A stretch of DNA of 64,000 bases, from assembly GCA_019054805.1 (NCBI GenBank), contig JAHQIY010000004.1, forward strand, positions 7,634,501 through 7,698,500, in the 5' to 3' direction. This stretch comes from Brachionus manjavacas. Taxonomy: Eukaryota > Rotifera > Eurotatoria > Ploima > Brachionidae. The translations under genes and the position numbers were made by a program. The notes beneath the pieces are model-generated. The model saw nothing but the letters and a program-made list of their open reading frames with translations, had not been told where the DNA came from and searched no databases. Position 1 is the first letter of the stretch; the number at the start of each line of letters is the position of its first letter. This document shows positions 11,631 through 58,700 of this stretch, in pieces.

Positions 11631-12385
11631 ATTCTAAATAATTTGAAATTAAAATTATAAACAATAAATAATTTAAAAATAAATTTTAGATTTCCAAAAT
11701 TTGTTCCACATAATAACCAATGCATGTCTATTTTAATTTCGTTAATATCAACAGAAAAGATCATATTGTATTTTTCTTGTTTTTATATGCGCAAAATACT
11801 AATAAAACTCTGAACCTGTAATAATGCTGGATCAAAATCGAAAGTGTAAGCTTGACCCTTCAAGGTAAAAATTGATAATTTGAATTTACGGAATTAGGAT
11901 AAAAAAAATTAAATTAAATAATTAAAAATGGCTATTTAATTAAAAAAAATTCTATCCTAAATTTTAGTACAGAGATAAAATTAAAGATTTTGGAAAAATT
12001 GCTTTCTGAATTAAGTTTTTGAAGGCCTTGTGAAGTTGATTACAATTCACTCATATCAATTCATGCAAACTCCAATAACTTTTGAACGGGAAGTGATAAA
12101 ATTATTCTACAAAAGGTTACATATTTAAACAATTTTGTTGCACCTAAAAATAATGGTCTGCAATAACTCTGTAGCTGTGCAAAATGTGCACACCATTAAT
12201 AAGATGCCCGATCCACTCTGCATTGTATTTGCATATTTATTTGGGTGAAACAAAATTGTTAATATGTAACATTTTACATAATAATTTTATCACTTTCTGT
12301 TCAAAAGTTATTATAATTTGAATGAATTAAAATGAACTTGACAAAGCCGTAAAATTATTAAAAATGGAACTATGCTAATTAGAGT

Positions 12386-12704
12386 ATATTTTCCAGAGTT
12401 GGTCAAAAGTCTAAGTCAAGTCCGGACTTTGACTAAAACTAAAGAATTTTTTTAAAAATTTTTGTTTTAAATAAAATTTAGTTCTCGAATATCAATGTTT
12501 TTAAATTAAATTTTATCATTGTTAATTTTCTGTAATTTGGTGCTAATATAGAATGATGAGGTCTAATGTAATAGCCTGAAAATAATTAAGCTGACTTGAG
12601 TGAACTTTGACTTTAAAATTATTTGAAATCAAAGTCTGACTTTGACTTTGACTTTTAACGATTCTGACTTTAAAGTTTGACTTTTGACCAACTCTGATAT
12701 TTTC
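12386..12704 (+). mobile_element. hAT-type MITE with 8-bp target-site duplication
   Basis: The element itself is 12394-12696 (303 bp). It starts CAGAGTTGGTCAAAAGTC and ends with the inverse complement, GACTTTTGACCAACTCTG. It is flanked by a perfect 8-bp direct repeat, ATATTTTC (12386-12393 and 12697-12704), the target-site length typical of hAT transposons. Subterminal zones are packed with short inverted GACTTTGACTT-like units. It has no coding capacity. A second copy in opposite orientation lies at 56399-56715. Confidence 0.85.
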
Positions 12705-18581: not shown

Positions 18582-21209
18582 TCAATTAACTTTATTTGGT
18601 GCCAATCAGAAAAAATAAATTTTCAAAATTTTCATTATTTTCCAATCTTCCTTCTAAACAAAAAGCAGACTGATATATGAAATTGCATAATTAGAGATAA
18701 ATTATGAGCTATGGGGGCTTAGGAACGGGCCAACCAGCTAAACAAAAGCCAACTATTACTAGTGAATCTTGTTTAGCTGGTAATTATTTTTTTCAAGAGC
18801 GAAATCTTATTTTCGACTCGAGAAAATATTCACCCAAAACATAAAAAATTATAATTTTTCCAACAAAAAAATAAAAAAATAATATAGATTGCAAATGAGA
18901 AAGAAAAAAATGCAAATTTGAAAATCTAGTTTTTGTTCTTTTTCGTTTTTGCTAATGCAAAATAGTCATTAAAAATTTCCTTAGTAATTTCTATGGATAT
19001 AAATTAGCATAATTGTTTCAAGACTCTTTTGGTACTTTTGATCACTGCTGCCTACCTGCGTCGAAATAAAACTAAAATTATAAACAATACAATGTTTTAA
19101 ATTAAAAGCAAAAAATCAATTTAAATTGGAAATAATTTTACAATTTATACTCTTTTTTTTGGTTATTGTGATAAGAATTTATAGATTCCTTTATAGAAGC
19201 AGATTAAATTCATTTGTTATGCTTATATGACGTGTTTATCTGTAAAAGAAAAAGTCGTAAATTAACATCGACAACGATGCCTCATTTTCTGATAATTTTG
19301 TTTTAAATTTTTTTTGTAATAAACTTAGGATTGATTAGATAGAGAAGGTATTCGTCTAATTAAAACTTTTATTTATAATCAGTAAAGGGTTTTAGAACAA
19401 AGTCTCTAACATGGCTATAGCTTTTCTATTTTTTTTCATTGAATTTTTAAAACTGCAAAATATCCCATTGAAATATGAAAATAACACAAATAAACTTTAA
19501 AAAAATAATATTTTGATTTAAATTTAGTGCTCGGAGCAGTCTATCCGACTGAAATTTAATGGCATTTTATTTTTTTTGATCCCGACTCAAAAATTATAGT
19601 ATCCTACTATAATTACGGGAATACCCGCGTAGGGTATTATATTTAATTATTTTGTCAAAGCTATTAATATTTATTAATCATTAAATGAAGCCTTTTTAGT
19701 TTCATTTCGTCAAAGGCTTCTTCTTCCATAATTCCCTGAATTGCATGGTCTGACGACTATTTAACTTTAAACGCTTATGTATTAAAAAATGGTAAGAGAT
19801 TTTATGGTATTTTTGGGAGCTTTTGAAATAAATTTGGTTGCTAGTATTTAGAATTTCAAAAAAAATTTGATATTCTTAATTATAGTAAAAAAATTAGAAA
19901 AGCCAAAATCCAACAATAAAAAAGGTCTTTTAATGAAATTTAAAAAAAAAAGATTAAATTGCTAGTTGTCAAGTTGATTGTCCGCTTTTTATTTACACTT
20001 TTTACTTACGTAATAGTTATTAAGTGATAAAAAGGTTTAAGTAAAAGAGCAAAGTATAGACATAACCCTAGTTTAAAAAAAACATTGTTAAAAGGTTATA
20101 GTTCTTTGATAATTAAATGGAGAAAATAATATTTTTAGAAATTTTAAGGTTTAGAAATAGCTAATTAAAATTCAGTATTCTTCGCCTAATTTAAGAGATA
20201 AAAAATTTTAGTTTTTTATTTTTTAATTTTTTTAAAACAAAAAACAATAATAGCAATAAAATTTTGGAACAAGATTATAAGTTTTATCTTAGATGAACTA
20301 TTCATTTATGAAATATTTCCATAAGTATTTTAGGCAACAAATGTATAATTTAAAGGCAATAATAGGGACTATTTTTTAGAAATAGAAAAAAGAGTTTTGA
20401 ACTAAAATTGAAATAACCCATAGTCAAATTAAAATATAAAAAAGTGCTAATTGATATTTTCTAAATTTACATAGCATAGTAAAAAATCTAAATCTACTAT
20501 TTGGTAATAAAATTTAAATAATAAAGAACTGTCGAGAAGACAGAGGAAAATTAGTGAAATTGAATAGAACAAAAAGTTCAAATAAAAAATTATGAAATTT
20601 TCAGGTAACGAATGTGACAAAAAAAATTTTGCTTTTAAATATATAATTTTCTAATGAAGAAATTTTTTCTTGATTTTGACCCTAAAATGTTTTTAGCTAA
20701 GCATTCAAAATTTCTAAATAAAAAGCCTAGTGAAAAATATTTTAATGATAGCTAATTTTCTAGAAACTTGATAACTTTTGGATAAGGTAAATTACAAAAA
20801 CAATATTTCAAATTTTTGCCTTTTTCATTTTGAAGCAAATGATAAGTTACAGACTAATTAATTGAAAATTAAATCTTTTTAGTTGGTAATATTTAAGAAA
20901 ATTAATTAAAGCAAAACGTCAATATTTATCTCAAGGGTCTCTATTTTATTTTATAGCTCAAAGATTTATAAACGCTGTTCTATCGATCTTAAGTTAAAAA
21001 ATTTGATTTGTCTCGGCACTCAATGATTTTTTTAAGCGATTTGACAAACCATGTCACCAATTTTAGAATTAATTTTAGGATTGAAAATTTTTAAGTCTGA
21101 AAAATCAGAAAACAGATCATGTAAAATTTTATTGGATTTATGGCATTTTTGTAATATCAATTAAGTGTCATGATCATTTGCTTGAAATGACTTAAAAATG
21201 GAAATAAAG
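18582..21209. other. AT-rich intergenic DNA with small hairpins
   Basis: No gene was recognised between the divergent TMEM127 and CENP-A-like genes. Three perfect stem-loops stand out: 12-bp arms (CCAGCTAAACAA) at 18734-18745 and 18769-18780; 9-bp arms (ATTATAGTA) at 19593-19613; and 7-bp arms (AATACCC) at 19620-19638 directly beside it. They may be ends of decayed elements. Confidence 0.45.
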
Positions 21210-22357
21210 AAATTTAATTTAATATTTCAAAATATGTAAAAAAGAGTAGATTATCGTTGATGAATGACACTGGAAAAACATTTGTTCAAATTTGACATTA
21301 AGAAATCATAAAAAAACAAAATCTGAAAATTACAGACAAATTTCAAAAAAGTATTAGTAATAAATACAGTTAAGAAAATAATTCCAGTAGGTGTAAACAA
21401 TATTTATTCGAAATAAATTTAGAAATAAAAGAAAAATTAGCAAAAATTTATGAACATTGATAACATAATAAAAATTGGAAATTTAAAATGAAAATAAACA
21501 ATTTTATTATGTCTATAATAATATATAGCAAAACAAAATCTCAGATAATTATTAAGGGTTTATTATTTAGACTGATTTAAAATAATAATTGTAACCTCTC
21601 CAATAAACATCAGCCTTAATTTAAAGGTCATAATTGTTGCTTGATGTTTAAATAAAATTTAATAAGAAAGATTACGAAATACTAAATAATATTATGCTAA
21701 GTTATTTCATTACAAATGTATAAATTAGATAATTAGGTAAAATGAATAATCAAAATTATAATTGAATGTTAATTGAACCAAAAAAAAATAAGGAAAAATA
21801 AATTTTTAGTTTTAATTATTTTTTTGCTTGCATTGAAATATTCTAAAATGAAAATTAATCAACAAAAAAGCAAAAGAAAATTAAAAAAAAAACAAGAAAA
21901 ATTTAATCAATTTGATGGAAAAGTTTTTAATTAATCATTTAACTTGTCAAAAATAAAAAAATGAACTTTTTAAAATATTTTAATATATTCACCCGCAAAA
22001 ATTAGAAGCGTGTCATTTTTAAAATACTCAATGTACACGCAAACATAAAAATCTATTAAAAAAATCTTCTATTTCCCATTGCTTTTGAGAACATATTTTG
22101 AAATTTTTTTTTATATCATAAAAAAAAACTGAAATTTTTGTTGATTCCTTTGAATATTTTGATTAATTTTAAAACTTGAGAAAAATTATTTTCTAAAGCA
22201 AAGACAAAATTTGTGTCTCCAAGAATTTGCGCCAAATTTTTTTTTTGAAATCCAAATAACTAGCATAATTTGACTAAAAGAAAAAGACAAATTATTTTAT
22301 TCGAGTTGCTCTTCGATTAAGTCTTTCATTTAGACAGATACAGTTGCACACATAACA

Positions 22358-22906
22358 ATGGTCAAACGAAAATCTTTGCCAAAGCCTGCTGATCGGGCAG
22401 GATATGCCGCTCAAACAGCACCTCGAATTTCTGACAGTACGTCCGATTCAACCTCATCTCCTAGCAATGAATTAATGTCCACACGCACTTCTCCTCGAAA
22501 ATCACTAACTACGTCAAAACTAAGCAAGGCAAATACAACAAAAACAAGGGGCAAAAAATTGGCACCTGTTTTCAAACAAATAAGAGATTTACAGAAAACT
22601 ACAAATCTCTTGATTCCAAGAGCTCCCTTTCTCCGTTTAGTAAGTTGAGTTTTAGACTTTTTTCATGGTTGATTAAATGATTTGTTTGTACAGCTACGCG
22701 AACTACTCCAACAAAGATCAACTGGAATTAGAATTACCGAAATGGCTGTGGAAGCGCTGAGAGAAGCAAGCGAAAATGTTCTGGTCAGTGTTTTCGAAGA
22801 TTCATACCTCCTCGCATTGCATGCTAAAAGAGTCACTCTAATGCCGCGTGACATTTCACTTCTTCTCAGAATTCGCAACGACTTTAATCTTCTAAGTTCA
22901 ACTTGA
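22358..22906 (+). CDS. CENPA: CENP-A-like centromeric histone H3 variant (intact copy)
   Basis: Replaces H3 in centromeric nucleosomes and is the base on which kinetochores assemble. Two exons: 22358-22639 and 22694-22906, with a 54-bp GT/AG intron, giving 164 residues. The C-terminal histone fold is clear: QIRDLQKTTNLLIPRAPF (alpha-N region), then RELLQQ, MAVEALREASENVLV, FEDSYLLALHAKRVTLMPRDI and a final RIRND. The roughly 75-residue tail is Ser/Thr/Lys-rich and lacks the canonical H3 start (ARTKQ) and its modified lysine sites, so this is a variant, not replicative H3. I saw no extra residue in loop 1, which some CENP-A proteins have. An alternative is another divergent H3 variant, but tail divergence with fold retention favours CENP-A. 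The intron splits the fold early. Confidence 0.82.
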
Positions 22907-22954
22907 ATTTATATTTGATCCTTTCTCTCAAAAAAAATATGTATGTAAAAAACC

Positions 22955-22981
22955 TTGTTTAGTTTTGAATAAACTAAACAA
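22955..22981 (+). terminator. 3' hairpin presenting an AATAAA signal after the CENP-A-like gene
   Basis: Forty-nine bases after the stop codon, an 11-bp perfect inverted repeat (TTGTTTAGTTT) encloses a 5-base loop. The AATAAA polyadenylation hexamer (22968-22973) lies across loop and stem. It is not the short GC-containing stem of replication-dependent histone mRNAs. The mirror copy is kept in the right arm near 32781-32807. A functional role is inferred. Confidence 0.4.
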
Positions 22982-23529
22982 TTTTTATCTCATTCGACTC
23001 TACTATGTAAGTACTGTTATTTTTAGGAATTTCTTTTTTATGTGAATAAAATTCAGTAGAAGGCATAAGATTTTTGCACTTGAATAAATTTAAATAAATT
23101 TCGCTTCAAAAAATGTTATTTTCTTTTTTTAATTTTTGGTTTATGTTTGAATAAAGTGTCGAATTTTAATGGTCTTGAATTGTAATAAAAAAAAAATTTG
23201 TTAAGAACCTATAATTCAACATTTAAATAAAATGTTTTTTTCCCAAATATATCATATATTTTGATTGATTTTTTTCAGCTATTCAGCTCTTTTGGATATT
23301 TTTTAATTGCTCTAGTTTTAAAAATACTAGTTTATGTCCTTAATTTTTTATATTTTTTTCAAATAAAAATTTTGGGATTATTTTGATTTTTAGAGTTTAT
23401 TTTTGTCACATTTTGAGAAATGATTCCATTTAATTAAAAAATTTAATTAATTTATTTTTCTAATTTTTTATTAGCTAAAATTTAAAATTCAAAATTAAAT
23501 CCAACCCCACGTCATATGTATATGTTTCA

Positions 23530-24376
23530 TTATAGATTCTAATCTTGACCTTAATACACAGGCAGTTATAAATTTTAAAAAAGTTCAGAGCAGCTTTTTT
23601 GGAATTTCATATCTTCTGCCTAAAAATAGTCCTACCTCTTCACCTAAATTCAAATCATTTATATACAAAACATTTTGCTTATCTAAATTCACATATGGTC
23701 TTGAGGCTCTTACTCTTAATTCGACCACAAAGGATTCAATTACAAAACAACTTAATTAGACAAATGTTTGGTTTAAAAGCCTACTGTCACATGTCACGAG
23801 TCTTAAAAGTACTAAAATTATTCAACTTTGATGAACTTTATCTATTTTCAAAACTAACTTTTATTGATACAATTAAATATAATTATCTATCATCACAATT
23901 TTTAAAATATATGCTAAGTGACCCCCCTCTAATAAATCTTTTTCCTCCGACTTAGTACTTATTTCCAAGTACTTTAAAATTGAAACCTCAAAAATTTCAG
24001 TAAATATAAACCAACTTAAAGAAAATCTTAAGTTTAATCTGATTTCTAATGATGGTATATCTGATTCAATTTGGTTATGTCCTTGCAATTTAAAATTAAA
24101 ACATTACAAAACTCTCCTAAATGAGCTAATTCAAAATAAAAGAAATTCATGAATCTTGGTCCAAATTATCTTGCTTTCTAACTTTCATGCCTTTTTCTAT
24201 TTTCGAACTAATGTTCCTTTTTTTTTTGTAATTTTATTTTTAGGTAATAATTTTTCATTTTTTTAAAAAAACACAAAAACACAACTAAAAAAAAAAAAAA
24301 AAAAAAATTATTTATCTTTATTTTCTTTTACTTCTCCTTAAAGGAGGTTAATTCAATTCAATAAATAAATAAATAT
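23530..24376 (+). mobile_element. non-LTR retrotransposon (LINE) 3' fragment
   Basis: Frameshifted remains of a reverse transcriptase C-terminal region read plus. One frame gives FGISYLLP, FTYGLEALTLN; another gives QLQNNLIRQMFGLKAYCHMS and ELYLFSKLTFIDTIKYN; a third gives a closing HYKTLLNELIQNKRNS. A 3' UTR follows with a long A run and the block CTTCTCCTTAAAGGAGG, ending in an AATA-repeat tail (24359-24376). A related, more decayed 3' end lies at 41450-42012. Dead copy. Confidence 0.7.
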
Positions 24377-24867
24377 ATGTTGATGATACATTTTCTTGAT
24401 TTATCATAATCTTTTCCGAAATTTGATACAACCTTGGTAATGATGCTGTGTTGAAATTATCAAAAAGTAATAATATTACTAGACTACAAAATAGATGCTT
24501 AAATACAGTAATCAATTAAATAGATGATAATAAACAAAGAAATGGATCTTTTTATTTGAAAATATTTAATTGAAAAAATAGAAAATTAATTAAATTTAAA
24601 AACATTATTTGTCTTTTGCAAACTAATTTATGATGCTTTTTTTTATAAATGTCGGATTGAAACTAGACAAATAATTCATATTATTAATTGATATTTTTCG
24701 CTTGGAATACAGTATGCAAATCTGACATAATCTTGACCAAGTTCTCTTCTACTAATTTTAATGCTAACCTCTCGCTTTCATTTTGGTGGAAATTTTCGAG
24801 TCCGTAGTATATGAATGGTCTAATGAATGGATTCTTAAGTTAGCCCTTCATAGTTGGATGGATCTCA

Positions 24868-25653
24868 TTGGAAATAATTGAATTGAATTGTCTTCACGCA
24901 ACGCTTTCATGGTGCTACGAACTGCGCTCTCAGCCTCTCGCTCACACTGACTCGGTTCCTCGCCAAATTCTCTCTCGAGGTTACTACGAGCTTTTCAGCG
25001 AACGTATCCAAGACATTGCTAAGCTCTTGGAGAATGATGTCAACACTGCATACAACCAACTAGTCAAGTGTTACTGCGAAGCCTCTTCTATCCCAACACA
25101 ATTTCACCATGCCCGTTTGCGTCATAGTCCTAAGTGGTTCAATGCCAACATCAAGAAACTAACCAAGAGCAAATTTAAGCTTCATTGCAAAATACGTTCG
25201 GCCCCCCACATCCTAGAGCTCAGAGCTTCATATGCCTTGGCGTGCAAACGAGTCAAGTCCGCGGTCATACATTCAATTTGTAAGTTCGAAGCTTCGATTG
25301 TCCGGGTCTGTAAGGGTCAACCCAAACTGCTTTTTAATTATATCAACAGTCGGAAGCAATGCAAGGAAACCATAAAAGGCTTGGTGGATAGAGAAGGTGT
25401 CTTCCATACAGACGGTGGTACGATAGCTCACCTCCTTAACGTCCAGTTCGGAAGCGTCTTCATTCCATCTTCAACCCATGATCCGACTGTAGTTTCCAAG
25501 TATTCGTCGCAACGCGAGATCAATGTTAACATATTTTCGCCAGAAAGTAACCGCAAATATATTGAGCGCCTCAACCCCAGGAAATCGCCAGGAATGGACC
25601 ACATACATCCCTTCGTCGTTAAGAGCTGTGCCGTTGCTTTTTCTGAGGCTTAG
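24868..25653 (+). mobile_element. LINE ORF2 fragment between endonuclease and reverse transcriptase
   Basis: A 261-codon open segment with higher GC than its surroundings. It has the look of the LINE ORF2 linker and RT entry: SPKWFNANIK, KSKFKLHCKIRSA, QPKLLFNYINSRK, GGTIAHLLNVQFGSVF, then YIERLNPRKSPGMDHIHP, the motif just before RT block 1. Neither a full endonuclease nor an RT palm follows in frame, so it is truncated at both ends. The same 261-residue translation occurs at 30107-30892 in the opposite arm. Confidence 0.8.
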
Positions 25654-25734
25654 AGCAGCATAGGTTCGTACTGAGAAAATCCGTTGTTACTAATCTTTTA
25701 GTGACTGTCATAACACAAGGTATAATACTCACAG

Positions 25735-25851
25735 AAGAAATACAGTTTAATTCAAGGTCAAATAAGAGTTAAGATTCCAGATAGAAAAAGCTGGAGTATA
25801 TGTAAAGTACAATTGATGGATAATTTTACATTTAAATTGAAAGCGCAATAA
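25735..25851 (+). other. coding-like terminal-exon candidate in the duplicated arm
   Basis: After an acceptor-like ACTCACAG, 38 codons are open before TAA: begins KKYSLIQGQIRVKIPDRKSW and ends FKLKAQ. The amino-acid mix looks coding but no upstream exon or family was found. It also lies in the right arm. It may be a captured gene fragment or LINE tail. Confidence 0.2.
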
Positions 25852-26004
25852 AAGAATAATTTTAAAAAATTTGAAAATTTTATAAACAAATCTTGATGTT
25901 CAAGATTTTTGACTAGACCGGAAGGCGTCGTATCTGTTCTTGAAATACATCTCTAATTTTTGCTATCTCAAAATCGAAATTTTGCTGCTCGCTATTAATC
26001 AATT

Positions 26005-26360
26005 AATCTTTATTTATTTGTTATTTTGGACCGAGCTTGAGCTCCCTAAGAATTAAAAAAACAAAAAAAAAATAAAAATAAAAATAATAATTGTAAATGA
26101 TTAAAATAAAATTCAAGAATAAAAAAAGATAAAATAAAAGAAATTAAAGAAAAGATAAATAGATATGTAATAAATGATATATTATTATTTTTTTTAAACG
26201 TAGAATAGTATCAGACATGCTTAAATATTTATCCAAAAGCATGTTTTATTCATTATTTTATATTTTTTTATTTATTTGTTTTCTGTACCGATCTATGGCT
26301 CCTTCAGAATAAATTTAAAAAAAATAAAAAATAAAATTAAAGTTAATTGTAATAAATCAA
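26005..26360 (-). mobile_element. two related LINE 3'-end sequences in tandem
   Basis: Read on the minus strand, two segments (about 26087-26005 and 26360-26260) each contain a GGAGC block, a GGTCC/GGTAC step and an AAATAAATAAA tail, the layout of LINE 3' termini seen elsewhere in the window. The first marks the inner edge of the left arm of the inverted duplication. Confidence 0.5.
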
Positions 26361-26714
26361 TTCCTCCGCCGCCTCGACGAATAGTTACTAAACATTCGTA
26401 GAGTTATCAACGTTGAGAGTGTGAACATCAATTCTCTCACTATAAAAGAGATTGTTTTTTTTTAAATAAAGAAATAAGAATAATAAAGTAGTTTCCCCCA
26501 CTTAACGTTTATCATTTACCCCAACGGCCTTTTCGGCAAAGATCTCCATCCATTACATAATTAAATAAGAAAAAAAAAATCAAAATAAAGTAAATAAGCA
26601 AAAAATTGAAAGTTAAGAAGACATAGATTGTTACATGTGGCACATGTTTACATAGTTCGGTTTTCAGGAAAAAAGGAGGTAATAGTAAGGTAGCAATTGA
26701 GTTGGGTATTCAAT

Positions 26715-27142
26715 TTATCTCGATTCGAAACTTTCTTTGTATTCCTCCACCAGTCTTACAACCAATGGAATAGAATCACTCGGTCCTGTCCCAACATATC
26801 TCTTATATTCTTTAATTTCGTCTACTAATATAATAAAATTTAACTTAGAATCAAATTTTATACCAAGAAAATTAAAACACGACTTTTCAATCGATATCTT
26901 CATTTTCCATTTTATAAGCCATTGTTCAGGTTCGTTGGTGTATTTATTTATCTTATGTTCCCCTTTTTGTTATAAATGAAGAATGTAACCAGATCATCTA
27001 CGAAAAGCAGTGAGTATTCATTATTTGTTTTTTTTATTTTGGGTATGTTATTAAAATATATACTAAATGAAAGAGGACTAATTAATGAGCCTTGAGAAAC
27101 ACCTACAGTTATTTGATATTCGTCGCTCAAGTGGTCATTCAC
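26715..27142 (-). mobile_element. LINE reverse transcriptase fragment, frameshifted
   Basis: Minus-strand frames give VGVSQGSLISPLSFSIYFN and LLFVDDL, the RT motif B and a YADD-box variant. After a frame change near 26950 they give EQWLIKWKMKI and FNFLGIKFDSKLNF, the RT thumb side. At least one frameshift separates the pieces and the start and end are missing. The residues after about 26800 no longer look like RT. Confidence 0.8.
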
Positions 27143-27145
27143 ATT

Positions 27146-27225
27146 TACTTTAGATAGTGTAGTGGGTAAAACAACAGCTTATTGCGACTGAGAGTCCGGG
27201 TTCGAATCCTAGTCAAGTTAAATAA
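27146..27225 (+). mobile_element. tRNA-derived SINE-like head
   Basis: An A-box-like TAGTGTAGTGGGTA and, about 40 bases on, a perfect B box (GGTTCGAATCC) have tRNA-gene spacing. The T-stem and acceptor arms do not pair well, so this is not a functional tRNA. It is best read as a SINE head or old tRNA pseudogene inserted among LINE debris. Confidence 0.5.
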
Positions 27226-27697
27226 ATGTAACGTTTAAAAAAAATAAATTATGGATTTGAGCTAGTGCTTTCAGTGTTGAGCTTCTCTGATTTGAGTTCA
27301 TCGCCAAATCATTTCTCTAGATGGCTGTTACCATTCATCTAAAAAATAGAACCTGGCGTTAAAACAGCAATTATATTCCTATGAGAATGAGAAGGAAATT
27401 CTTGCCTAGAATGTTTAAGAATTCAAGGCTGAAGAAACTTTTGTTGGTGCAGAAACCGCCGTCCCTTAGAAGACGAGGACTGGTTACTCGAAGTAAATTA
27501 GAAAAAGGCCTATAATATGATATTTCAATTATTCATCAATAAAAATTATTTCTTTAAAAAATTCATAAGAAGGAAAAAAAATAGATCAAAATTTAATAAA
27601 ACGGATTAATTTCAAGGGGGTTGGGAAGTTCATTTCAATTCGTTCTTTTCAATTCAGAATAAGTTAAATAACTTTTTTCCCAAAAGAGATAATCCAG

Positions 27698-28199
27698 TTC
27701 TGTAAAATGCTTAATGGTTAAGCAACTTTGCTTAATCCAAAAATATATGTCTGCAAAAACTCTGCAATGTTATTGCACACTTGATTGGAATACTGTTTAA
27801 TGGCGGGCAAAATACAGAAAATTGCAGAGTATTTGATTTTCACAATTATCATGTTCATGGCAAAACCAAGCACCGGCAAACATCAGATAATCTATTCTTT
27901 TTAATTCAAAAAATTGCAGAGTATTTTGCAGACTTATTCTACTGCATTAAGCAAATTTGCTTAATGCATACCTTCCTGCGTGTCCAGACCAACATTACCT
28001 GTACCTCCTTACTATGTTCTCTAGCGGTGCCGACTGTGCTCTCTGGTAGAGCTTTGAGTTTGTCAAGCCCACTCTCCTGTGACCCGCTAGCTGCTGCAAT
28101 CTCCTGAGATGAAAACGGTTGATTTTGGCATTATCTTCGTTGCAAGTCCATGTCTGAGCTTTATAGAGAATTGAAGACAGCATAGTCGCTTTGTTCATC
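27698..28199 (+). repeat. left arm of the inner inverted repeat
   Basis: About 500 bp that matches 29172-29670 in reverse complement with few differences. It contains a foldback element carrying a piece of RT sequence, plus the C-terminal end of a LINE ORF2. It nests within the spacer of the larger inverted duplication. Confidence 0.9.
27705..27970 (+). mobile_element. foldback/MITE-like element with a captured RT fragment
   Basis: Roughly 50-bp imperfect terminal inverted repeats: TTAAGCAA, TTTGCTTAAT and TCTGCAAAAACTCTGCAAT near the left end recur inverted at the right end. The right end also holds a 26-bp perfect palindrome (27943-27968). Inside, 27835-27915 copies part of the LINE RT seen on the minus strand at about 28555-28640 (HGKTKHRQTSDNLFFLIQK). 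That insert is bracketed by a direct repeat, TTGCAGAGTATTT. The element interrupts a LINE ORF2 end. Its mirror copy is in the right inner arm. Confidence 0.6.
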
Positions 28200-28279
28200 T
28201 CTCGAGTCAAGGGGACTTTAAATATTGGCGTCGAAAGACGTAAGTAGCGAGTATAAAAAAACTCTGTTATAAGCAGCAA
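27990..28279 (-). mobile_element. LINE ORF2 C-terminal fragment
   Basis: Minus-strand translation runs from RLSTPIFKVPLTREMNKAT through MLSSILYKAQTWTC, NRFHLRRLQQLAGH and LENIVRRYR, then a stop followed in frame by CWSGHAGR. This is the usual LINE RT C-terminal end, R-R-x-R-x-x-W-x-G-H. It is interrupted by the stop and by the foldback element. The mirror copy starts at 29172 on the plus strand. Confidence 0.8.
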
Positions 28280-28341
28280 TGCTTCTACAAGCTAACCAAA
28301 TATAACTTGTGTTGTACAAGGGTTTAGACTTGTCGCAGAAA

Positions 28342-28376
28342 AATACTACTACCGCTACTACTTCTACTACTATATG
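28342..28376. repeat. imperfect TAC trinucleotide microsatellite
   Basis: About eleven imperfect TAC/TTC/CGC-type triplets in a row, between the LINE fragments in the spacer of the inner inverted repeat. Confidence 0.7.
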
Positions 28377-28401
28377 TCCTATTGTCTAAAATGGATCTAA
28401 T

Positions 28402-29060
28402 TCAGTTAGTCAAGTAATGAGATGGATTCATTTCAATCAATTTAAAAAGTAAACCTACATGCCAAACATTATCAAAGGCCTTAGAAATATCAAAAAAAAG
28501 GCAATAAACTCTTTTTTTTCTATTAAATGATTCCACAATTTTTTGAATTAAAAAGAAAAGATTATCTGATGTTTGCCGGTGCTTGGTTTTGCCATGAACA
28601 TGATAATTGTGAAAATCAAGATCAGAATTTGCCTTACTCAAATATATCTTTAATTAATTGAGCAAAACAATATCCTGACATTTGAGCAGACTATGCATAC
28701 CTTTTTGACTGGACTGTGACGACAAAAGAAATTTCTTATTTGTTGACTCGTTATTTTGGAACTGTGAAGTTTTGTTTATCATTCCAAGCATGTTTGTTTC
28801 TATTTGAGAGATTTTTTCTTCTTCATCTTGAATTTCATCTAAAACAAAGAATTAAATATACCACCTGTGTTGATCGTGGCAATAGAAAGTTTTAACTCAT
28901 CTGGTTGTACATCACATGACACGGGAAGTTAATTACTAGTGTTTGACTTGGTATAATTGTTTTGTTATCAATTTGATTATTGTGTCAAAGCCAATGACTT
29001 GACCTTCTTTTGTCTCTTTTACATCTTCTAACAAAGTATCCATTTTCTCTTTAAGAAAGT
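28402..29060 (-). mobile_element. LINE RT palm fragment and upstream ORF pieces
   Basis: Minus-strand frames give HRQTSDNLFFLIQKIVESF then YCLFFDISKAFDNVWHVGLL, the RT block with the motif A aspartate (FFDISKAFD), ending at 28402. Farther up (about 28690-29050), separate frames give EEEKISQIETNMLGMINK and FLKEKMDTLLEDVKETK, coiled-coil-like pieces perhaps from ORF1. Stops and frame changes separate these parts. This is the likely source of the fragment captured in the foldback element. Confidence 0.7.
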
Positions 29061-29171
29061 TAATTTCTAGTTTATAATGAAATTTTTATAAATTTTGGAT
29101 TGAAGTTAGCTATAAAAATCGATATTTTTTCTTAGCTAGAAAATTACCCTAGTACCAGAACCAAAGTCAGG

Positions 29172-29670
29172 ATGAACAAAGCGACTATGCTGTCTTCAAT
29201 TCTCTATGGAGCTCAGACATGGACTTGCAACGAAGATAATGCCAAAATCAACCGTTTTCATCTCAGGAGATTGCAGCAGCTAGCGGGTCACAGGAGAGTG
29301 GGCTTGACAAACTCAAAGCTCGCCCAGAGAGCACAGTCGGCACCGCTAGAGAACATAGTAAGGAGGTACAGGTAATGTTGGTCTGGACACGCAGGAAGGT
29401 ATGCATTAAGCAAATTTGCTTAATGCAGTAGAATAAGTCTGCAAAATACTCTGCAATTTTTTGAATTAAAAAGAATAGATTATCTGATGTTTGCCGGTGC
29501 TTGGTTTTGCCATGAACATGATAATTGTGAAAATCAAATACTCTGCAATTTTCTGTATTTTGCCCGCCATTAAACAGTATTCCAATCAAGTGTGCAATAA
29601 CATTGCAGAGTTTTTGCAGACATATATTTTTGGATTAAGCAAAGTTGATTAACCATTAAGTATTTTACAG
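29172..29670 (-). repeat. right arm of the inner inverted repeat
   Basis: Reverse complement of 27698-28199. Read plus, 29172-29375 is the LINE ORF2 C-terminal piece (MNKATMLSSILYGAQTWTC to ENIVRRYR, then a stop). Read minus, the rest is the foldback element with its RT insert. Its outer edge at about 29670 abuts the inner edge of the large right arm (29671) with no spacer. Confidence 0.9.
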
Positions 29671-30106
29671 AATTATTTTTATTTTTATTTTTTTTTTGTT
29701 TTTTTAATTCTTAGGGAGCTCAAGCTCGGTCCAAAATAACAAATAAATAAAGATTAATTGATTAATAGCGAGCAGCAAAATTTCGATTTTGAGATAGCAA
29801 AAATTAGAGATGTATTTCAAGAACAGATACGACGCCTTCCGGTCTAGTCAAAAATCTTGAACATCAAGATTTGTTTATAAAATTTTCAAATTTTTTAAAA
29901 TTATTCTTTTATTGCGCTTTCAATTTAAATGTAAAATTATCCATCAATTGTACTTTACATATACTCCAGCTTTTTCTATCTGGAATCTTAACTCTTATTT
30001 GACCTTGAATTAAACTGTATTTCTTCTGTGAGTATTATACCTTGTGTTATGACAGTCACTAAAAGATTAGTAACAACGGATTTTCTCAGTACGAACCTAT
30101 GCTGCT

Positions 30107-30892
30107 CTAAGCCTCAGAAAAAGCAACGGCACAGCTCTTAACGACGAAGGGATGTATGTGGTCCATTCCTGGCGATTTCCTGGGGTTGAGGCGCTCAATA
30201 TATTTGCGGTTACTTTCTGGCGAAAATATGTTAACATTGATCTCGCGTTGCGACGAATACTTGGAAACTACAGTCGGATCATGGGTTGAAGATGGAATGA
30301 AGACGCTTCCGAACTGGACGTTAAGGAGGTGAGCTATCGTACCACCGTCTGTATGGAAGACACCTTCTCTATCCACCAAGCCTTTTATGGTTTCCTTGCA
30401 TTGCTTCCGACTGTTGATATAATTAAAAAGCAGTTTGGGTTGACCCTTACAGACCCGGACAATCGAAGCTTCGAACTTACAAATTGAATGTATGACCGCG
30501 GACTTGACTCGTTTGCACGCCAAGGCATATGAAGCTCTGAGCTCTAGGATGTGGGGGGCCGAACGTATTTTGCAATGAAGCTTAAATTTGCTCTTGGTTA
30601 GTTTCTTGATGTTGGCATTGAACCACTTAGGACTATGACGCAAACGGGCATGGTGAAATTGTGTTGGGATAGAAGAGGCTTCGCAGTAACACTTGACTAG
30701 TTGGTTGTATGCAGTGTTGACATCATTCTCCAAGAGCTTAGCAATGTCTTGGATACGTTCGCTGAAAAGCTCGTAGTAACCTCGAGAGAGAATTTGGCGA
30801 GGAACCGAGTCAGTGTGAGCGAGAGGCTGAGAGCGCAGTTCGTAGCACCATGAAAGCGTTGCGTGAAGACAATTCAATTCAATTATTTCCAA
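30107..30892 (-). mobile_element. LINE ORF2 linker fragment, right-arm copy
   Basis: Mirror of 24868-25653, with the same 261-residue translation including KSPGMDHIHP. Truncated at both ends as in the left arm. Confidence 0.8.
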
Positions 30893-31384
30893 TGAGATCC
30901 ATCCAACTATGAAGGGCTAACTTAAGAATCCATTCATTAGACCATTCATATACTACGGACTCGAAAATTTCCACCAAAATGAAAGCGAGAGGTTAGCATT
31001 AAAATTAGTAGAAGAGAACTTGGTCAAGATTATGTCAGATTTGCATACTGTATTCCAAGCGAAAAATATCAATTAATAATATGAATTATTTGTCTAGTTT
31101 CAATCCGACATTTATAAAAAAAAGCATCATAAATTAGTTTGCAAAAGACAAATAATGTTTTTAAATTTAATTAATTTTCTATTTTTTTTCAATTAAATAT
31201 TTTCAAATAAAAAGATCCATTTCTTTGTTTATTATCATCTATTTAATTGATTACTGTATTTAAGCATCTATTTTGTAGTCTAGTAATATTATTACTTTTT
31301 GATAATTTCAACACAGCATCATTACCAAGGTTGTATCAAATTTCGGAAAAGATTATGATAAATCAAGAAAATGTATCATCAACA

Positions 31385-32231
31385 TATATTTATTTATTTA
31401 TTGAATTGAATTAACCTCCTTTAAGGAGAAGTAAAAGAAAATAAAGATAAATAATTTTTTTTTTTTTTTTTTTTTTTAGTTGTGTTTTTGTGTTTTTTTA
31501 AAAAAATGAAAAATTATTACCTAAAAATAAAATTACAAAAAAAAAAGGAACATTAGTTCGAAAATAGAAAAAGGCATGAAAGTTAGAAAGCAAGATAATT
31601 TGGACCAAGATTCATGAATTTCTTTTATTTTGAATTAGCTCATTTAGGAGAGTTTTGTAATGTTTTAATTTTAAATTGCAAGGACATAACCAAATTGAAT
31701 CAGATATACCATCATTAGAAATCAGATTAAACTTAAGATTTTCTTTAAGTTGGTTTATATTTACTGAAATTTTTGAGGTTTCAATTTTAAAGTACTTGGA
31801 AATAAGTACTAAGTCGGAGGAAAAAGATTTATTAGAGGGGGGTCACTTAGCATATATTTTAAAAATTGTGATGATAGATAATTATATTTAATTGTATCAA
31901 TAAAAGTTAGTTTTGAAAATAGATAAAGTTCATCAAAGTTGAATAATTTTAGTACTTTTAAGACTCGTGACATGTGACAGTAGGCTTTTAAACCAAACAT
32001 TTGTCTAATTAAGTTGTTTTGTAATTGAATCCTTTGTGGTCGAATTAAGAGTAAGAGCCTCAAGACCATATGTGAATTTAGATAAGCAAAATGTTTTGTA
32101 TATAAATGATTTGAATTTAGGTGAAGAGGTAGGACTATTTTTAGGCAGAAGATATGAAATTCCGAAAAAGCTGCTCTGAACTTTTTAAAATTTATAACTG
32201 CCTGTGTATTAAGGTCAAGATTAGAATCTAT
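31385..32231 (-). mobile_element. LINE 3' fragment, right-arm copy
   Basis: Mirror of 23530-24376: decayed RT C-terminal frames (QLQNNLIRQMFGLKAYCHMS), 3' UTR, long T run on the plus strand and AATA-type tail. A substitution shortens the open frame relative to the left copy. Confidence 0.7.
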
Positions 32232-32855
32232 AATGAAACATATACATATGACGTGGGGTTGGATTTAATTTTGAATTTTAAATTTTAGCTAATAAAAAAT
32301 TAGAAAAATAAATTAATTAAATTTTTTAATTAAATGGAATCATTTCTCAAAATGTGACAAAAATAAACTCTAAAAATCAAAATAATCCCAAAATTTTTAT
32401 TTGAAAAAAATATAAAAAATTAAGGACATAAACTAGTATTTTTAAAACTAGAGCAATTAAAAAATATCCAAAAGAGCTGAATAGCTGAAAAAAATCAATC
32501 AAAATATATGATATATTTGGGAAAAAAACATTTTATTTAAATGTTGAATTATAGGTTCTTAACAAATTTTTTTTTATTACAATTCAAGACCATTAAAATT
32601 CGACACTTTATTCAAACATAAACCAAAAATTAAAAAAAGAAAATAACATTTTTTGAAGCGAAATTTATTTAAATTTATTCAAGTGCAAAAATCTTATGCC
32701 TTCTACTGAATTTTATTCACATAAAAAAGAAATTCCTAAAAATAACAGTACTTACATAGTAGAGTCGAATGAGATAAAAATTGTTTAGTTTATTCAAAAC
32801 TAAACAAGGTTTTTTACATACATATTTTTTTTGAGAGAAAGGATCAAATATAAAT

Positions 32856-33403
32856 TCAAGTTGAACTTAGAAGATTAAAGTCGTTGCGAATTCTGAGAAG
32901 AAGTGAAATGTCACGCGGCATTAGAGTGACTCTTTTAGCATGCAATGCGAGGAGGTATGAATCTTCGAAAACACTGACCAGAACATTTTCGCTTGCTTCT
33001 CTCAGCGCTTCCACAGCCATTTCGGTAATTCTAATTCCAGTTGATCTTTGTTGGAGTAGTTCGCGTAGCTGTACAAACAAATCATTTAATCAACCATGAA
33101 AAAAGTCTAAAACTCAACTTACTAAACGGAGAAAGGGAGCTCTTGGAATCAAGAGATTTGTAGTTTTCTGTAAATCTCTTATTTGTTTGAAAACAGGTGC
33201 CAATTTTTGCCCCTTGTTTTTGTTGTATTTGCCTTGCTTAGTTTTGACGTAGTTAGTGATTTTCGAGGAGAAGTGCGTGTGGACATTAATTCATTGCTAG
33301 GAGATGAGGTTGAATCGGACGTACTGTCAGAAATTCGAGGTGCTGTTTGAGCGGCATATCCTGCCCGATCAGCAGGCTTTGGCAAAGATTTTCGTTTGAC
33401 CAT
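32856..33403 (-). pseudogene. CENPA: CENP-A-like histone H3 variant, frameshifted copy
   Basis: Second copy of the gene at 22358-22906, on the opposite strand. Exons 33403-33123 and 33068-32856. The tail and the exon-2 histone fold translate as in the left copy. In exon 1 a run of six A in the left copy is five A here (T run at 33204-33208), shifting the frame after TRGK and ending the ORF about eight residues later (NWHLFSNK). That removes the whole histone fold. The splice sites and the 3' hairpin remain. The lesion is in a homopolymer, so a sequencing or consensus error is a real alternative; if so this would be a second intact gene. Confidence 0.78.
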
Positions 33404-34551
33404 TGTTATGTGTGCAACTGTATCTGTCTAAATGAAAGACTTAATCGAAGAGCAACTCGAATAAAATAATTTGTCTTTTTCTTTTAGTCAAATTATGCTA
33501 GTTATTTGGATTTCAAAAAAAAAATTTGGCGCAAATTCTTGGAGACACAAATTTTGTCTTTGGTTTAGAAAATAATTTTTCTCAAGTTTTAAAATTAATC
33601 AAAATATTCAAAGGAATCAACAAAAATTTCAGTTTTTTTTTATGATATAAAAAAAAATTTCAAAATATGTTCTCAAAAGCAATGGGAAATAGAAGATTTT
33701 TTTAATAGATTTTTATGTTTGCGTGTACATTGAGTATTTTAAAAATGACACGCTTCTAATTTTTGCGGGTGAATATATTAAAATATTTTAAAAAGTTCAT
33801 TTTTTTATTTTTGACAAGTTAAATGATTAATTAAAAACTTTTCCATCAAATTGATTAAATTTTTCTTGTTTTTTTTTTAATTTTCTTTTGCTTTTTTGTT
33901 GATTAATTTTCATTTTAGAATATTTCAATGCAAGCAAAAAAATAATTAAAACTAAAAATTTATTTTTCCTAATTTTTTTTTGGTTCAATTACATTTCAAT
34001 TATAATTTTGATTATTCATTTTACCTAATTATCTAATTTATACATTTGTAATGAAATAACTTAGCATAATATTATTTAGTATTTCGTAATCTTTCTTATT
34101 AAATTTTATTTAAACATCAAGCAACAATTATGACCTTTAAATTAAGGCTGATGTTTATTGGAGAGGTCACAATTATTATTTTAAATCAGTTTAAATATTA
34201 AACCCTTAATAATTATCTGAGATTTTGTTTTGCTATATATTATTATAGACATAATAAAATTGTTTATTTTCATTTTAAATTTCCAATTTTTATTATGTTA
34301 TCAATGTTCATAAATTTTTGCTAATTTTTCTTTTATTTCTAAATTTATTTCGAATAAATATTGTTTACACCTACTGGAATTTTTTTCTTAACTGTATTTA
34401 TTACTAATACTTTTTTGAAATTTGTCTGTGATTTTCAGATTTTGTTTTTCTATGATTTCTTAATGTCAAATTTGAACAAATGTTTTTCCAGTGTGATTCA
34501 TCAACGATAATCTACTCTTTTTTACATATTTTGAAATATTAAATTAAATTT

Positions 34552-37527
34552 TTTTCAATAGTTTCAAATAGACTATTCGAATTTAGCGAAAAAAACGTAA
34601 GCTCTGGACTGTTTGATTCTGCTATGCCATTAATCTGAATGCTAAATGAATAAATAGTTAGCGAGTCTAGATATTTTGAGATTCCGACTTTTTTGTGTAA
34701 TTCATACCTAACTTTTATTTTATCCTTCCTGAACCCTCAAATTTTTAATTATGTACAATCTGTCACCCTTTAAATCAATTTATTTAATTTAATTTTAATC
34801 ATTTCTTTTATTATCTTAATCATTAATTTAGATCAGCTTCATTAAAAAATTTTAATTTTTACATTAGATTCTGTATTTGTTTGAAGAAATTATAGATAAA
34901 ATAAAATTGTTTATTTTGTTTGGTATTAATTTTTTTCGAATTTACCTGAATTAATTTAATTTAAAAATATATACTAATGCTTAGTCAAACATCACAGTTA
35001 AATAAATTTAAAAAGGTCATTGATGAATACTGTTTAAATATACTCAATTTTTTTTTAATTGTACGAGTTATTATTTTTACTTTAATAAAATTTGTTTTGT
35101 TTGATTACTGCGCTATACTATTATCATGATGTATTTTTTTCAATTGACTGATTCATCATCGGGAAGAATATCTTAGTTACTTTAATTAATCATTTTTCTT
35201 AAAAATTATTATATTTTTATTCAAGATTATAACTAATTTAGAAATATAATTTTCGATCCTTTTGATATTTCTCATCAATGACTCATCAATAAATAATTCT
35301 AAAAAGTTCAAGTTAAATACATTACAAATAAGACCGTAAAAGATTTAAATAAATGTTAAAAAACTTGACAGCTAAAATATTTTTACACCAATAAAGCTCA
35401 AAATATATCTCTAAATAAATTAACAAATCTGTAAAAATTTAAATACACGATAAATACATGATATAAATAAACAAATTTATTAGTTAATATCACAAATGGA
35501 GATTTTAATTTCGAATTTTTTTTTTCATAATAAATTAAAAATTCTAAAAAGCGTCAAAACTTTTGAATCCAATTCGAAATTGTCTTGATGTTTTATTTGA
35601 CAATTTGCGAATAAGTATAAATCATTTTTAGACAAATTTCAATCAGTTAAAATTGTAATAATTCATTCATTAAATTAGAAAATATTATTTAGCTGTTAGT
35701 TTTTAAGAAGAAAAAAGTTTTTAGTATGTTTTAAAAATAGCTTTAAAAATTACGAATCTAATATTTGTAACAGAAAAAAATCTAAATATAAATTTAAATA
35801 TATTTTAAAGTCGTATATTTTCCTTCCTAATCTGAATCTAATAATCAAGGTGATTTAATATCAAAATTAAAATTAGAGATAGTTTAAAAAAATTGTAGAA
35901 AAGTAATAAATTAAATTAACATGTTTTATCAATAGCAATAAAAATACGACTAATATCCTTCTTGTAATAATTAAAATTTCAATGTAAACAAAAATTGTAT
36001 TTTTTATATAAAGAGTTAGATAAAAGTAATAATCAAATAATTATGATGCAAGAATGTTTAATCCATTGAAAAAAATTTATTTAGAATAAAAATTACAACT
36101 ATGTTTTGCTAAAATTTTTATAAAAAAAAACAAAATTTGGTAAATTAGATTAATACAAAAAATAGGAATCAAATTCTATTTAATATCTATTTAATTTTTT
36201 TTAATCATAGGGTATGGTAACATTTAAATTACTTTAATTTTTTTAATTATCCTAGATTACGTAAGAAAAAGATACAAATAACTTTAAAAAAAATTTAATG
36301 TTTTTATTTACAAATAGATAATGTAAAATTTTATTTTTGCATTGTGAATTAATATAAAGATATTTACAATCTTTGGTTATTTTTGAAAATGATCATATAT
36401 TAGTGTTTTTATATTTGTATATTTTGCGAAACTCACTCAATTCCAAAAGTAAATTTTTATTTATTGAACATCTATACTTTTTTATATATATCTAAAGACT
36501 AACACAAAATAATTTTAGTAAATTTAAAGAAGAAATTTTAAATTTTTCAACTCAGTTGGTACCAGAATCAAAGAAAAAATACCAGTTACTCTTCCTAGTT
36601 GTTTTTATTGAATAGTAAAATTACAGTTCATTGGCAAACACTTTTTTAGAACATTATCTGAATTTTATGTGAAGTTATTTTAAAAAGTTTTTAAATTAAA
36701 AAAATTAATTATTTTTATGATTTTATATCGTTGAAATGAGCTCGTTTTTATTTTAGAATATTGTTCCAATTTTTCTTATTATTAGATTTAAAAAACCCTT
36801 TTTTTTGTTCCAAAAAAGCAAGTAAATAAAATTTTCAAAAAGTTAATTTAGTTATAGAAGGAAAGTGAAAATTTTTGGATTTTGAGCTAAAATTTGAGTG
36901 CAAATAACTTAAATATACGATTTTAATTTTAACGATCATTTTAAATTTAAAATAGCAATTTAATTGATGAACCAGAGCAAGCACGTTGGAAAACGGCGCA
37001 AATTTAATTAAAAACAGGTCCGGTCTCACAGCAAACAAAATTAGATTCACATCAGCGGACTCGAATCGAGCAAACGAACACATTTATTCTCAACCGGTAG
37101 CAACAAAATTTTATCATTTTGAATCTAATAAACCCGGAAAAAAAATAATAAAATTTTATTGATCTTTAGAGCGGAGCTGTTAACTCGTAACACTCTTGAA
37201 TCTAATCAGAACTTCGAATCTAATTTACCTGGCTTTTCATGTGAAAAGATAATTATCTTCCAATTGTTACAACTTTCCCATACGAAACTAATTTTCGAAT
37301 AGAATTTCATTTAGAATTAATCCACGAATAAACATGTTTCAATACCTGACACTTTACTGTTTATTAGTTACAACAATTTGAAACATTCAAGCCAATTTCT
37401 AATTGTCTACTAGTATGTTACCTGGTTTTTAATTTTACAATCATTGCATTAACTAATTTGTTCAAGGTATATAAACCAGAGTTGGTCGTGTAACTAGAAC
37501 ATATTTGTAAAAAAACTTCATGTGGCT
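34552..37527. other. AT-rich intergenic DNA, 5' region of Cdc25 at the end
   Basis: No gene recognised from 34552 to about 36900. The stretch 36960-37090 is distinctly richer in CG dinucleotides than its flanks and may hold Cdc25 promoter or 5' UTR. At 37481, 11 bases (CAGAGTTGGTC) match the tip of the hAT MITE family, perhaps a solo end or chance. Confidence 0.4.
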
Positions 37528-55700: not shown

Positions 55701-58700
55701 TAGGGTGTCAGTGGCTTGGAAAGAAACAAACAAATGTCATTATTTAATAATCTAAGTTATAGAACGTATGATTGAGATGATTATCCATTTAATTAAGTTT
55801 GACTTGGTGGCAAGGAAACAACATGGTTTTGTTACGATAAATTTAGGTTTAACCAATGTGTTAGAGACAATCAACACAGTAAGGGAGGCACTCAATCGAA
55901 TTTTTGCTTTGGTAATGATATTCATGGATTTTGCAAAGTCATTTGACTTAATAAGTTTCATATAGGGTGTTGATAAAATAATTTGAACTAAATTGCTTAA
56001 CTGGTAGGCTGCTCATTTGGTTGAAAGACTTTTTAATTAACAGAAAACAGAGTGTGGCTATTAGGAACATGTCTTCGAAATGGTTGTATTAAGTGGTGTG
56101 CTCAAGGGTCAATCTTAGGTACAAAAAATTCTGAAATATCTTTTGATTTATCGTAACAAATTGAAATGTATTTAAAAAATTATATTTCCAAAAAATTAAA
56201 TTAAATTTTTAGGTACTTATGTTTTCGATTAGAAATTGAAAATTAGTAAATTTTGGCAACAATCTGGCGTTTTGAATATATTTAATATAATTGGAGCAAA
56301 AACAGAAACAATTTTTTTGGTTTAGGGTTAAGACTCTTTCTGTAGTACCTATCAGTTGATAAAATTTTGTATCACCCGAATTTAGAATTTAATCTATACA
56401 GAGTTGGTCAAAAGTCAAACTTTAAAGTCAGAATCGTTAAAAGTCAAAGTCAGACATTGACTTCAAATAATTTTAAAGTCAAAGTCTGACTTTGACTTGA
56501 GTGGACTCAAGTCAACTTAATTATTTTCAGGCTATAAAGTCTATAGACCTCATCATTCTATATTAGCACCAAATTACAGAAAATTAACAATGATAAAATT
56601 TAATTTAAAAACATTGAAATTCGAAAACTAAATTTTATTTAAAACAAAAATTTAAAAATTTTTTTTTTAATATTAGTCAAAGTCCAGACTTGACTTTGAC
56701 TTTTGACCAACTCTGAATTTATATAAAGAATTAAATTAAATGATAATATCATTTTTATTTAATACTTGGCCTATATTTAATCAAAAGCTTTTTTTGACTT
56801 CATTCAGTAAATTTATACACTCGGGATTTTATATTTAATTCTTATTCTTTAAATTTTTAAGTTTTTAGTTTTTATCGAAATTTATAATGATTGCAAGGTA
56901 TAATATAAAATACTCGCGTTTCAAAACAATTATTTACGATTTATACATATTTCAATATTTTTGAGCGTAAGAATATATGCTTTTGAAAATTTCTATCGAG
57001 AAACTCGGTTTCAAGATAAAAATTAAAAGTTATTTGCTTTTGTGAATTCAAAATATTGATTAAAAGCTTTATACTTTTATCTATCATGATAGTTACCATA
57101 GTATAATTTAAAATTAATTGTTGACAAAATCAAATATTAAACAAAAATTCACTGATAATTTAGAATATTTTTAATGAATTTATTGCACCTTGATCAACCA
57201 CCACATTCATTTGATTCAATTGAAATTTTTCTGATCTATTTCTATCATTTAATGAATATAAATCAACTTCTTATAATTTTTTACAATAGAAATATTCCCA
57301 AAGATAATATCTATTAATTATATGCTATAAATTATATGCTATAATACCAAGCTTATTTTATATGCTATAAAAATTTTCCTCGTATTGTTTAAGTTTTTAA
57401 AATTCTTTTAAAATATATGCAAGCCTTACGTTTATTTGATAAGACGCCACTCTGTAAAATAAGGCCAAATGAGAACTGAATCTAAGAATAAGTCCATTTT
57501 GCTGTTCACTAACAATCAAATTCTTCAAGTATTCCATAAGATCTTAATTTTTTGTTTGTGTTAAAAAGTCCATTTCTGGAAAATTCTAATTTACCTAGAG
57601 TTCCAGAATCAAAATTGCTAATTCCACTCAAGATTATGTGTTTAAGAATAACTGAAAAAGGTTTGTTCGCATCGGTCTTAAGGGTCCCTATTAGTTGAGC
57701 CGAAGCATTTATTGTGTTGATGCCTGTGCTCATGTTATCACCCACAATATTCGAGCTGTTTTTAATAAGTATTTGAATACGGTCAAATATGTGCTTGATT
57801 GTTTGATTACTGCATAAATCTGACGATTTTCCACATATGATGTACACATTTTCGTCATCAGGATCACTCAAAAATTCACGATTTGTAATTCTTTGTCTAT
57901 TATTTAAAAAAAAAATATTAAATTAATTAAAAAAAAATAAACTATACCTTATTTCTTTTTCAATTATTTGGTTATACAACGCTTTGAAATAAATCCAAAT
58001 ATAATCAGAGAAATTTTTGCATACTGGCAGTACGGGGGTCACAAAACCGGCCAAAGAAGCATACACCGCTTTTTCATACGGTCCAAAGTTTTCATCTTTG
58101 ATCAGTTTGTGCACCATAAGGCGCCATATGTCCCTGTTCAAATTTCCCTCATTTTTGAAAATTTGCTTTTGATTGTTCGAACCAAAATTTGAATTAGCTG
58201 AATAATTTTTGTCACCGAATAGTCTGAAGCCTTCCAAAGTGGCAGCACGCCATGATTGGCCTATTTTTTGACAAAAATCTCTCGCTGACTTCAAATCTCC
58301 CGCTCGAATGAACGCAAAAATATATTCCATTAACTTATACTCATCCTCTTGGTCTAAATCATGCAATGATTTGGATAAACGAACTGGCGCATCTGGGTCC
58401 AGTTCATCGACATACTCTCTTCCAGACAAATTGCTTTTACCAAAAGCACTACTGCTTTTCAAGTTGTGCAAAGTGTGCTCCCAATTTACGGACTTTTCCG
58501 TAAAAGAATTCAAATTTTCTTTTATTTTTTTCATGTAGTCTGACTCGAAGGCTATTTTTTCTAGCCAATTAATAACCAATTTGACCCTTCTCACGAACGG
58601 ATTCCGCTTTTCCAAATTTTGCACAATGGCAGTCTCACTCAGGCCTTCTGAATTTTCAACATCCATGTCATTATCAAACTGGATTTCTTGATTCTTAGTG

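Follow-up and report, generated by a model that had tools for sequence, protein, structure and literature searches.

A 64,000-nucleotide stretch of the rotifer Brachionus manjavacas (assembly GCA_019054805.1, contig JAHQIY010000004.1, positions 7,634,501 to 7,698,500 of the forward strand; hereafter the window, on contig C4) contains a large palindrome, in whose arms lie two copies of a gene that is likely of the centromeric histone H3 (CenH3, CENP-A) type. Comparing the window with itself, we found an inverted repeat that pairs 21206-26088 with 34555-29672 at 99.591% identity over 4,888 alignment columns, its boundaries being placed to a precision of about one base. Two nearly identical facing arms of about 4.88 kb, as given in a preliminary description of the locus, are thus present in the assembly.

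The outer arms enclose a spacer of about 3.58 kb with many retroelement pieces, which had been described as 3.6 kb of transposon debris. The size and the content stand, but not all of the spacer is non-palindromic: a second inverted match (27698-28199 with 29672-29171; 502 bp, 98.8%) extends the right arm inward without a break, while its left counterpart lies beyond a block of 1,609 bp (26089-27697). Since this inner match directly abuts the right arm, the palindrome is longer than first described and its centre shrinks to 971 bp (28200-29170).

The left gene copy is intact and encodes 164 amino acids. The intron and exon 2 are identical in the right copy, but its exon 1 has 281 rather than 282 bases through the shortening of an A6 run to A5, such that the reading frame breaks after residue 66 and a stop follows; as assembled, only the left copy reads through. 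A whole gene in each arm, as had been proposed, therefore holds for the left arm and, because of the single missing base, not for the right. The earlier head-to-head arrangement is not borne out for the genes, which converge tail to tail (left on the plus, right on the minus strand).

Table 1. Features of the palindrome (window coordinates) and the related gene on contig C29.
Feature	Position	Strand	Basis or remark
Left arm, outer part	21206..26088	+	Self-BLAST; 99.59% to 34555-29672
Right arm, outer part	29673..34555	-	Inverted match to left arm
Left arm, inner continuation	27698..28199	+	98.8% inverted match to 29171-29672
Right arm, inner continuation, directly adjoining outer part	29171..29672	-	Self-comparison
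Centre outside inverted repeat (971 bp): end of mosaic insert, retroelement T pieces, further sequence	28200..29170		
1,609-bp block, left arm only; most likely deleted from right arm	26089..27697		
CenH3-type gene, left copy, exon 1 (N-terminal tail, start of fold)	22358..22639	+	Gene model
CenH3-type gene, left copy, exon 2 (rest of histone fold, stop)	22694..22906	+	Gene model
Right copy, exon 1; A6 run one base short (~33209 by alignment)	33123..33403	-	Frameshift as assembled
Right copy, exon 2; identical to left	32856..33068	-	Arm comparison
Homogenised stretch: whole gene and two repeat fragments	22199..26088	.	1 substitution, against 11.1 and 8.0 events/kb at the edges
Dispersed repeat in left arm; at most ~96% to other genomic copies	23526..24378	+	Right counterpart 31384-32237
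Long open reading frame fragment in left arm; 92.5% to C4:6077985-6078756	24889..25655	+	Right counterpart 30105-30871
Non-LTR (long terminal repeat) retroelement T, 3' part	26002..27155	-	Reverse transcriptase and endonuclease domains in other genomic copies
Mosaic insert inside T, pieces of several repeats	27156..28370	.	Comparison of genomic copies
84-bp inverted copy of T 28536-28619, 1 mismatch	27833..27916	+	Sequence comparison
Further retroelement T pieces	28371..28683	-	Comparison of genomic copies
Diverged third CenH3-type gene (L034 223-756)	C29:727223-727756		Genome search; end read from sequence

Differences between the arms

Within the middle of the arms (22199-26088), all five indel events lie at A runs of at least six bases (a sixth gap, terminal in the arm alignment, was left out of this count). 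The same contig has a second palindrome (C4:3121905-3125996 with 3132845-3128752; L048/L047, in C4:3117001-3134000), whose arms of 4.1 kb are 99.54% identical around a spacer of about 2.8 kb that also contains retroelement T pieces. Its arms differ by 5 substitutions and 8 indel events, and all 8 indels fall in A or T runs. The concentration of indels in such runs at both palindromes makes them look like homopolymer sequence error, or slippage.

This bears on the reading of the right copy as a genuine pseudogene in a decaying palindrome, with the left copy alone at work. The exon 1 frameshift is what such a pseudogene might display, but no other difference was recorded inside the gene, intron and exon 2 being identical, and the same class of indel recurs in non-coding parts and in the second palindrome. 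We consider the pseudogene explanation possible, though doubtful; old decay is a less likely source of the lost base than a sequence error or a very recent lesion.

Substitutions are spread very unevenly. The outer 993 bp (21206-22198) hold 13 substituted sites, or 11 events when three adjacent sites are counted once, and the inner 502 bp hold six sites in four events, whereas the 3,890 bp between them, with the whole gene inside, hold a single substitution, at 23600. If the middle stretch differed at the rate of the edges, it should hold about 39 events (Poisson chance of one or fewer, ~4e-16), and in none of 2,000 simulations under a uniform spread were the differences as uneven as observed. 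Coding constraint is no explanation, because the repeat pieces at 23526-24378 and 24889-25655 lie inside the homogenised stretch. Gene conversion from arm to arm, already suggested in the preliminary description, fits this pattern of edges and middle and is its simplest and likely reading.

Long inverted arms of about 99% identity or more around a spacer, with a homogenised tract between more diverged edges, have partial parallels elsewhere. Inverted, nearly identical blocks also form palindromes in another rotifer, Adineta vaga. These were reportedly described by Flot in 2013 as allelic blocks, a view said to have been revised later; in contrast to such blocks, the B. manjavacas arms measure 5-7 kb and stand between two different flanks. 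Large near-identical inverted arms with genes are likewise found in palindrome P6 of the human Y (PMC3723533) and in inverted repeats of C. elegans (PMC1803023), compared with which the B. manjavacas arms are small, carry a centromeric-type histone and have no known sex linkage.

A very recent inverted duplication without conversion, whose edges of ~1% divergence would come from an other-haplotype template or a patchwork origin, is the chief rival to conversion. It would account for the near-identity of the middle 3.9 kb, and the presence of a locally templated piece at the locus suits it. It demands, however, at least two haplotype switches, one for each edge, while conversion is an established process in long palindromes (human Y P6, PMC3723533), and we regard this rival as rather improbable.

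Authenticity and origin of the palindrome

The possibility that two haplotypes of one locus were joined in inverted orientation by the assembler, or that a chimeric read was incorporated, was examined through copy number in the 114.17-Mb, 61-contig genome. Two full-length matches to 21300-26000 were found, both at the palindrome, the remaining 40 being partial matches to repeats inside the arm (40 of 733 candidates were scored, and the repeat counts are lower bounds). Each flank, of about 3 kb, has one full-length match in the genome. Beyond this, the right flank gave 6 weak partial matches (65-72%), all inside 34557-34882, and the left flank gave one of 56 bp. The spacer (26089-29170) also has one full match, and its pieces are dispersed repeats with many copies.

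Some features would suit an artefact: the ~1% divergence of the edges could represent heterozygosity, the homopolymer indels suggest an imperfect consensus, and a second palindrome of similar identity on the same contig is what a systematic artefact might give. Set against these are two different flanks that are each present once, a centre of 971 bp that is no part of the inverted repeat, the lack in the genome of any further copy of the flank and arm segments used as queries, a structural difference of 1,609 bp between the arms, and the want of any simple path by which an allele would become inverted. Reads with a missed adapter or a fold-back would yield abutting arms without a second unique flank. 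The joining of two haplotypes, which had been named as the main alternative, is weakened by the distinct flanks, the non-repeat centre and the missing second copy, and an artefact is unlikely, as judged on the assembly; very probably, the palindrome is a genuine inverted duplication of the CenH3-type gene in B. manjavacas.

The repeats of the spacer suggest which side is older. Elsewhere in the genome, copies of T-like sequence continue across position 26088, the inner end of the left arm, e.g. in L038 (26002-26160, 78%) and L036, and another repeat spans 27697 in L044 (27617-27834, 89%) and L036 (27682-27743, 84%). Because repeats thus span both ends of the 1,609-bp block, the left arrangement looks ancestral, and the block, of about 1.6 kb, was most likely deleted from the right arm. 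The T piece at 28371-28584 is continuous with 27155 in other genomic copies, and since 28580-28683 sits farther along T in several of them, T is also internally deleted here. No Pfam match was found for the long open reading frame in the left arm (24889-25655), which we take to resemble a retroelement reading frame.

We chart a possible origin by fold-back template switching. Replication through the retroelement-rich stretch would have folded back near 29170/28199, such that about 7 kb, from 28199 leftward to 21206, would have been duplicated on the opposite side, with rejoining at 34556. From the right arm so formed, 1,609 bp would then have been lost, and later gene conversion between the arms would have evened out about 3.9 kb, the gene included, leaving a divergence of ~1% at either edge. 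The 84-bp inverted copy of T, with its one mismatch, was probably locally templated and suggests that copying of this kind occurred nearby.

The histone gene and its relatives

Translated from the joined exons, the window protein matches the core histone domain (PF00125, E=1.6e-28, residues 42-155). Its N-terminal tail is unrelated to that of H3: the rotifer's own H3 starts MARTKQTARKS, the window protein MVKRKSLPKPADRAGYAA. Loss of a conserved Gln in helix 1 is diagnostic of CenH3, and a loop 1 longer than that of H3 is a customary diagnostic, though not a functional definition. The Gln is absent in all 19 rows of the family assembled around the window gene and in all three references with a centromeric name, and it is present in Brachionus H3; loop 1 exceeds the H3 length by 1-8 residues in 14 of the 19 family rows and is longer also in all three references. 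The stretch YLL-LHA-RVTL of the window protein is, to our eye, CENP-A-like. An SPRK motif occurs in the tail, and SPKK motifs are described in the tail of the Drosophila centromeric H3 (PMC2642717).

Among 112 candidate proteins, 31 matched, including relatives in B. plicatilis ('histone H3, partial', 92%) and B. calyciflorus (70%). By eye, 10 of the 31 are short open reading frames that end just past PF(L/I)RLV, where exon 1 of the window gene ends, which fits a conserved intron. The B. plicatilis relative (P0001) lies on a contig of 1,305 bases, as a locus broken by repeats might, and this is no evidence by itself.

In a tree of 37 hand-chosen and mostly unnamed rows, where those named for the centromere come from Lampris, Trichinella and Blattella, the 19 family rows are separated from the others by one branch (98/88). 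Closest to them come Trichinella CENP-A, itself long-branched, and Allacma (90/83), followed by Blattella, Culicoides and Frankliniella (92/84), and the CenH3s of Trichinella and Blattella appear to stand nearer to the window gene than the rotifer's own H3 does. With animal CenH3s the window gene has in common an H3-type fold, a divergent tail and the loss of the helix-1 Gln; it differs from them in that loop 1 shows no extension in either B. manjavacas or B. plicatilis. The CENP-A-like identity given in the preliminary description is upheld. The gene is likely CenH3-type on these protein features, and most likely it would make an H3 variant that marks centromeres, alongside a paralog on contig C29.

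This paralog is at odds with the earlier expectation that CENP-A is usually single copy, which fails in the B. manjavacas genome. It has open exons and an intron at the same position as the window gene. Outside the gene, its surroundings match no part of the palindrome arms, only repeats of the spacer. Together with the window gene and B. plicatilis it forms a group (98/95) in which the order is not fixed and which follows the split from B. calyciflorus (99/99). Compared with the left copy, synonymous divergence (dS) is 0.39 and the ratio of nonsynonymous to synonymous divergence (dN/dS) 0.40, with 0.70 in the tail and 0.20 in the fold. The low ratio in the fold points to purifying selection there, and the paralog has thus probably been functional; it appears to evolve faster than the window gene, with a fast tail and a constrained fold.

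To the account as a whole, in which a genuine palindrome, arm-to-arm conversion and a CenH3-type gene are combined, we assign a probability of roughly 0.62. Several observations weigh against it. The right copy is frameshifted as assembled. The helix-1 Gln is a soft mark, since it is absent also in the H3-like P0020, while 6 of the 16 rows from outside the family keep it. In the window gene, the C29 paralog, B. plicatilis and 2 others, loop 1 is no longer than in H3, for which reason we call the gene CenH3-type and not a proven CenH3. The branches 90/83 and 92/84 are not starred, and the CENP-A of the fish Lampris falls outside the group formed by the family and the Trichinella, Allacma and insect rows; CenH3 monophyly is itself uncertain (PMC3380720). 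Among the matches listed in a PDB search (60 of 180), all are H3 and none is CENP-A, and the predicted structure is weak (mean predicted local distance difference test score, pLDDT, 64.5). A genome search for the CENP-C cupin (PF11699) found none, with four prokaryote controls below the cut-off; a control search for Ndc80 (PF03801) likewise found none, nor did it match in any control genome. Finally, Gnathifera are reported to be without CenH3 (PMC12460157). Another, non-centromeric H3 variant, which the H3-length loop 1 of B. manjavacas, the listed PDB matches and the reported loss in Gnathifera would favour, is nevertheless very unlikely given the divergent tail, a helix-1 Gln missing from all 19 family rows and a loop 1 that is extended in 14 of them, the tree position nearer to some named CenH3s than to Brachionus H3, and an intron, unlike the canonical H3 reading frames inspected (one H3-like match on C15 is also split).

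Loss in Gnathifera and other duplicated H3 genes

According to a 2025 Nature paper (PMC12460157), nearly all CenH3 chromatin-assembly genes (12 of 20, CenH3 and CENP-T included) were lost in Gnathifera, a loss of CenH3 that its discussion ties to holocentromeres and fast rearrangement; B. manjavacas (spelled manjacavas) was used there at least for synteny. If the family described above is CenH3, the reported loss is not shared by Brachionus. The presence of such a gene, along with its B. plicatilis and B. calyciflorus relatives, would move or split the loss and make rotifer centromeres directly testable, in a species for which CRISPR (clustered regularly interspaced short palindromic repeats) editing has been published (PMC10395877). 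Guide targets given in that paper for vasa and mlh3 of B. manjavacas each occur exactly once in the present genome, which fits this species, although a very close relative might show the same; the assembly that the paper names is GCA_018683815.1. In our literature search, no report of a rotifer CenH3 came up. It is conceivable, though we hold it to be speculative and improbable, that monogonont rotifers keep CenH3, the loss not being ancestral to Gnathifera, and that the pair and the paralog are kept for divided centromere duties or a buffered dose across mitotic parthenogenesis, meiosis and haploid males.

Duplications of CenH3 in animals were thought rare before the cases in Drosophila and mosquitoes (PMC8200288). 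Those sets (Cid) likewise comprise more than one CenH3 gene with strongly diverging tails, in contrast to which the two B. manjavacas copies in the palindrome are nearly identical; a CenH3-type duplication in a seemingly converting palindrome is unusual.

Other inverted or duplicated sequences were also seen. An imperfect short palindrome (73%) lies at 12051-12335 of the window, and 12394-12700 and 56395-56715 form a distant inverted repeat pair (86%), perhaps of transposon copies. Contig C16 carries two copies of an unusual H3 variant (MARNKQTARKST...) at 794951-795364 and 790190-790564 (L027, L028), 96% identical over 524 bp, in which, read by eye, loop 1 has the H3 length and the helix-1 Gln is present. 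Canonical H3 genes at C17:1773648-1774007 and 1784744-1785103 (L030, L031) are inverted and 11 kb apart, and share about 1 kb at 97.8%.

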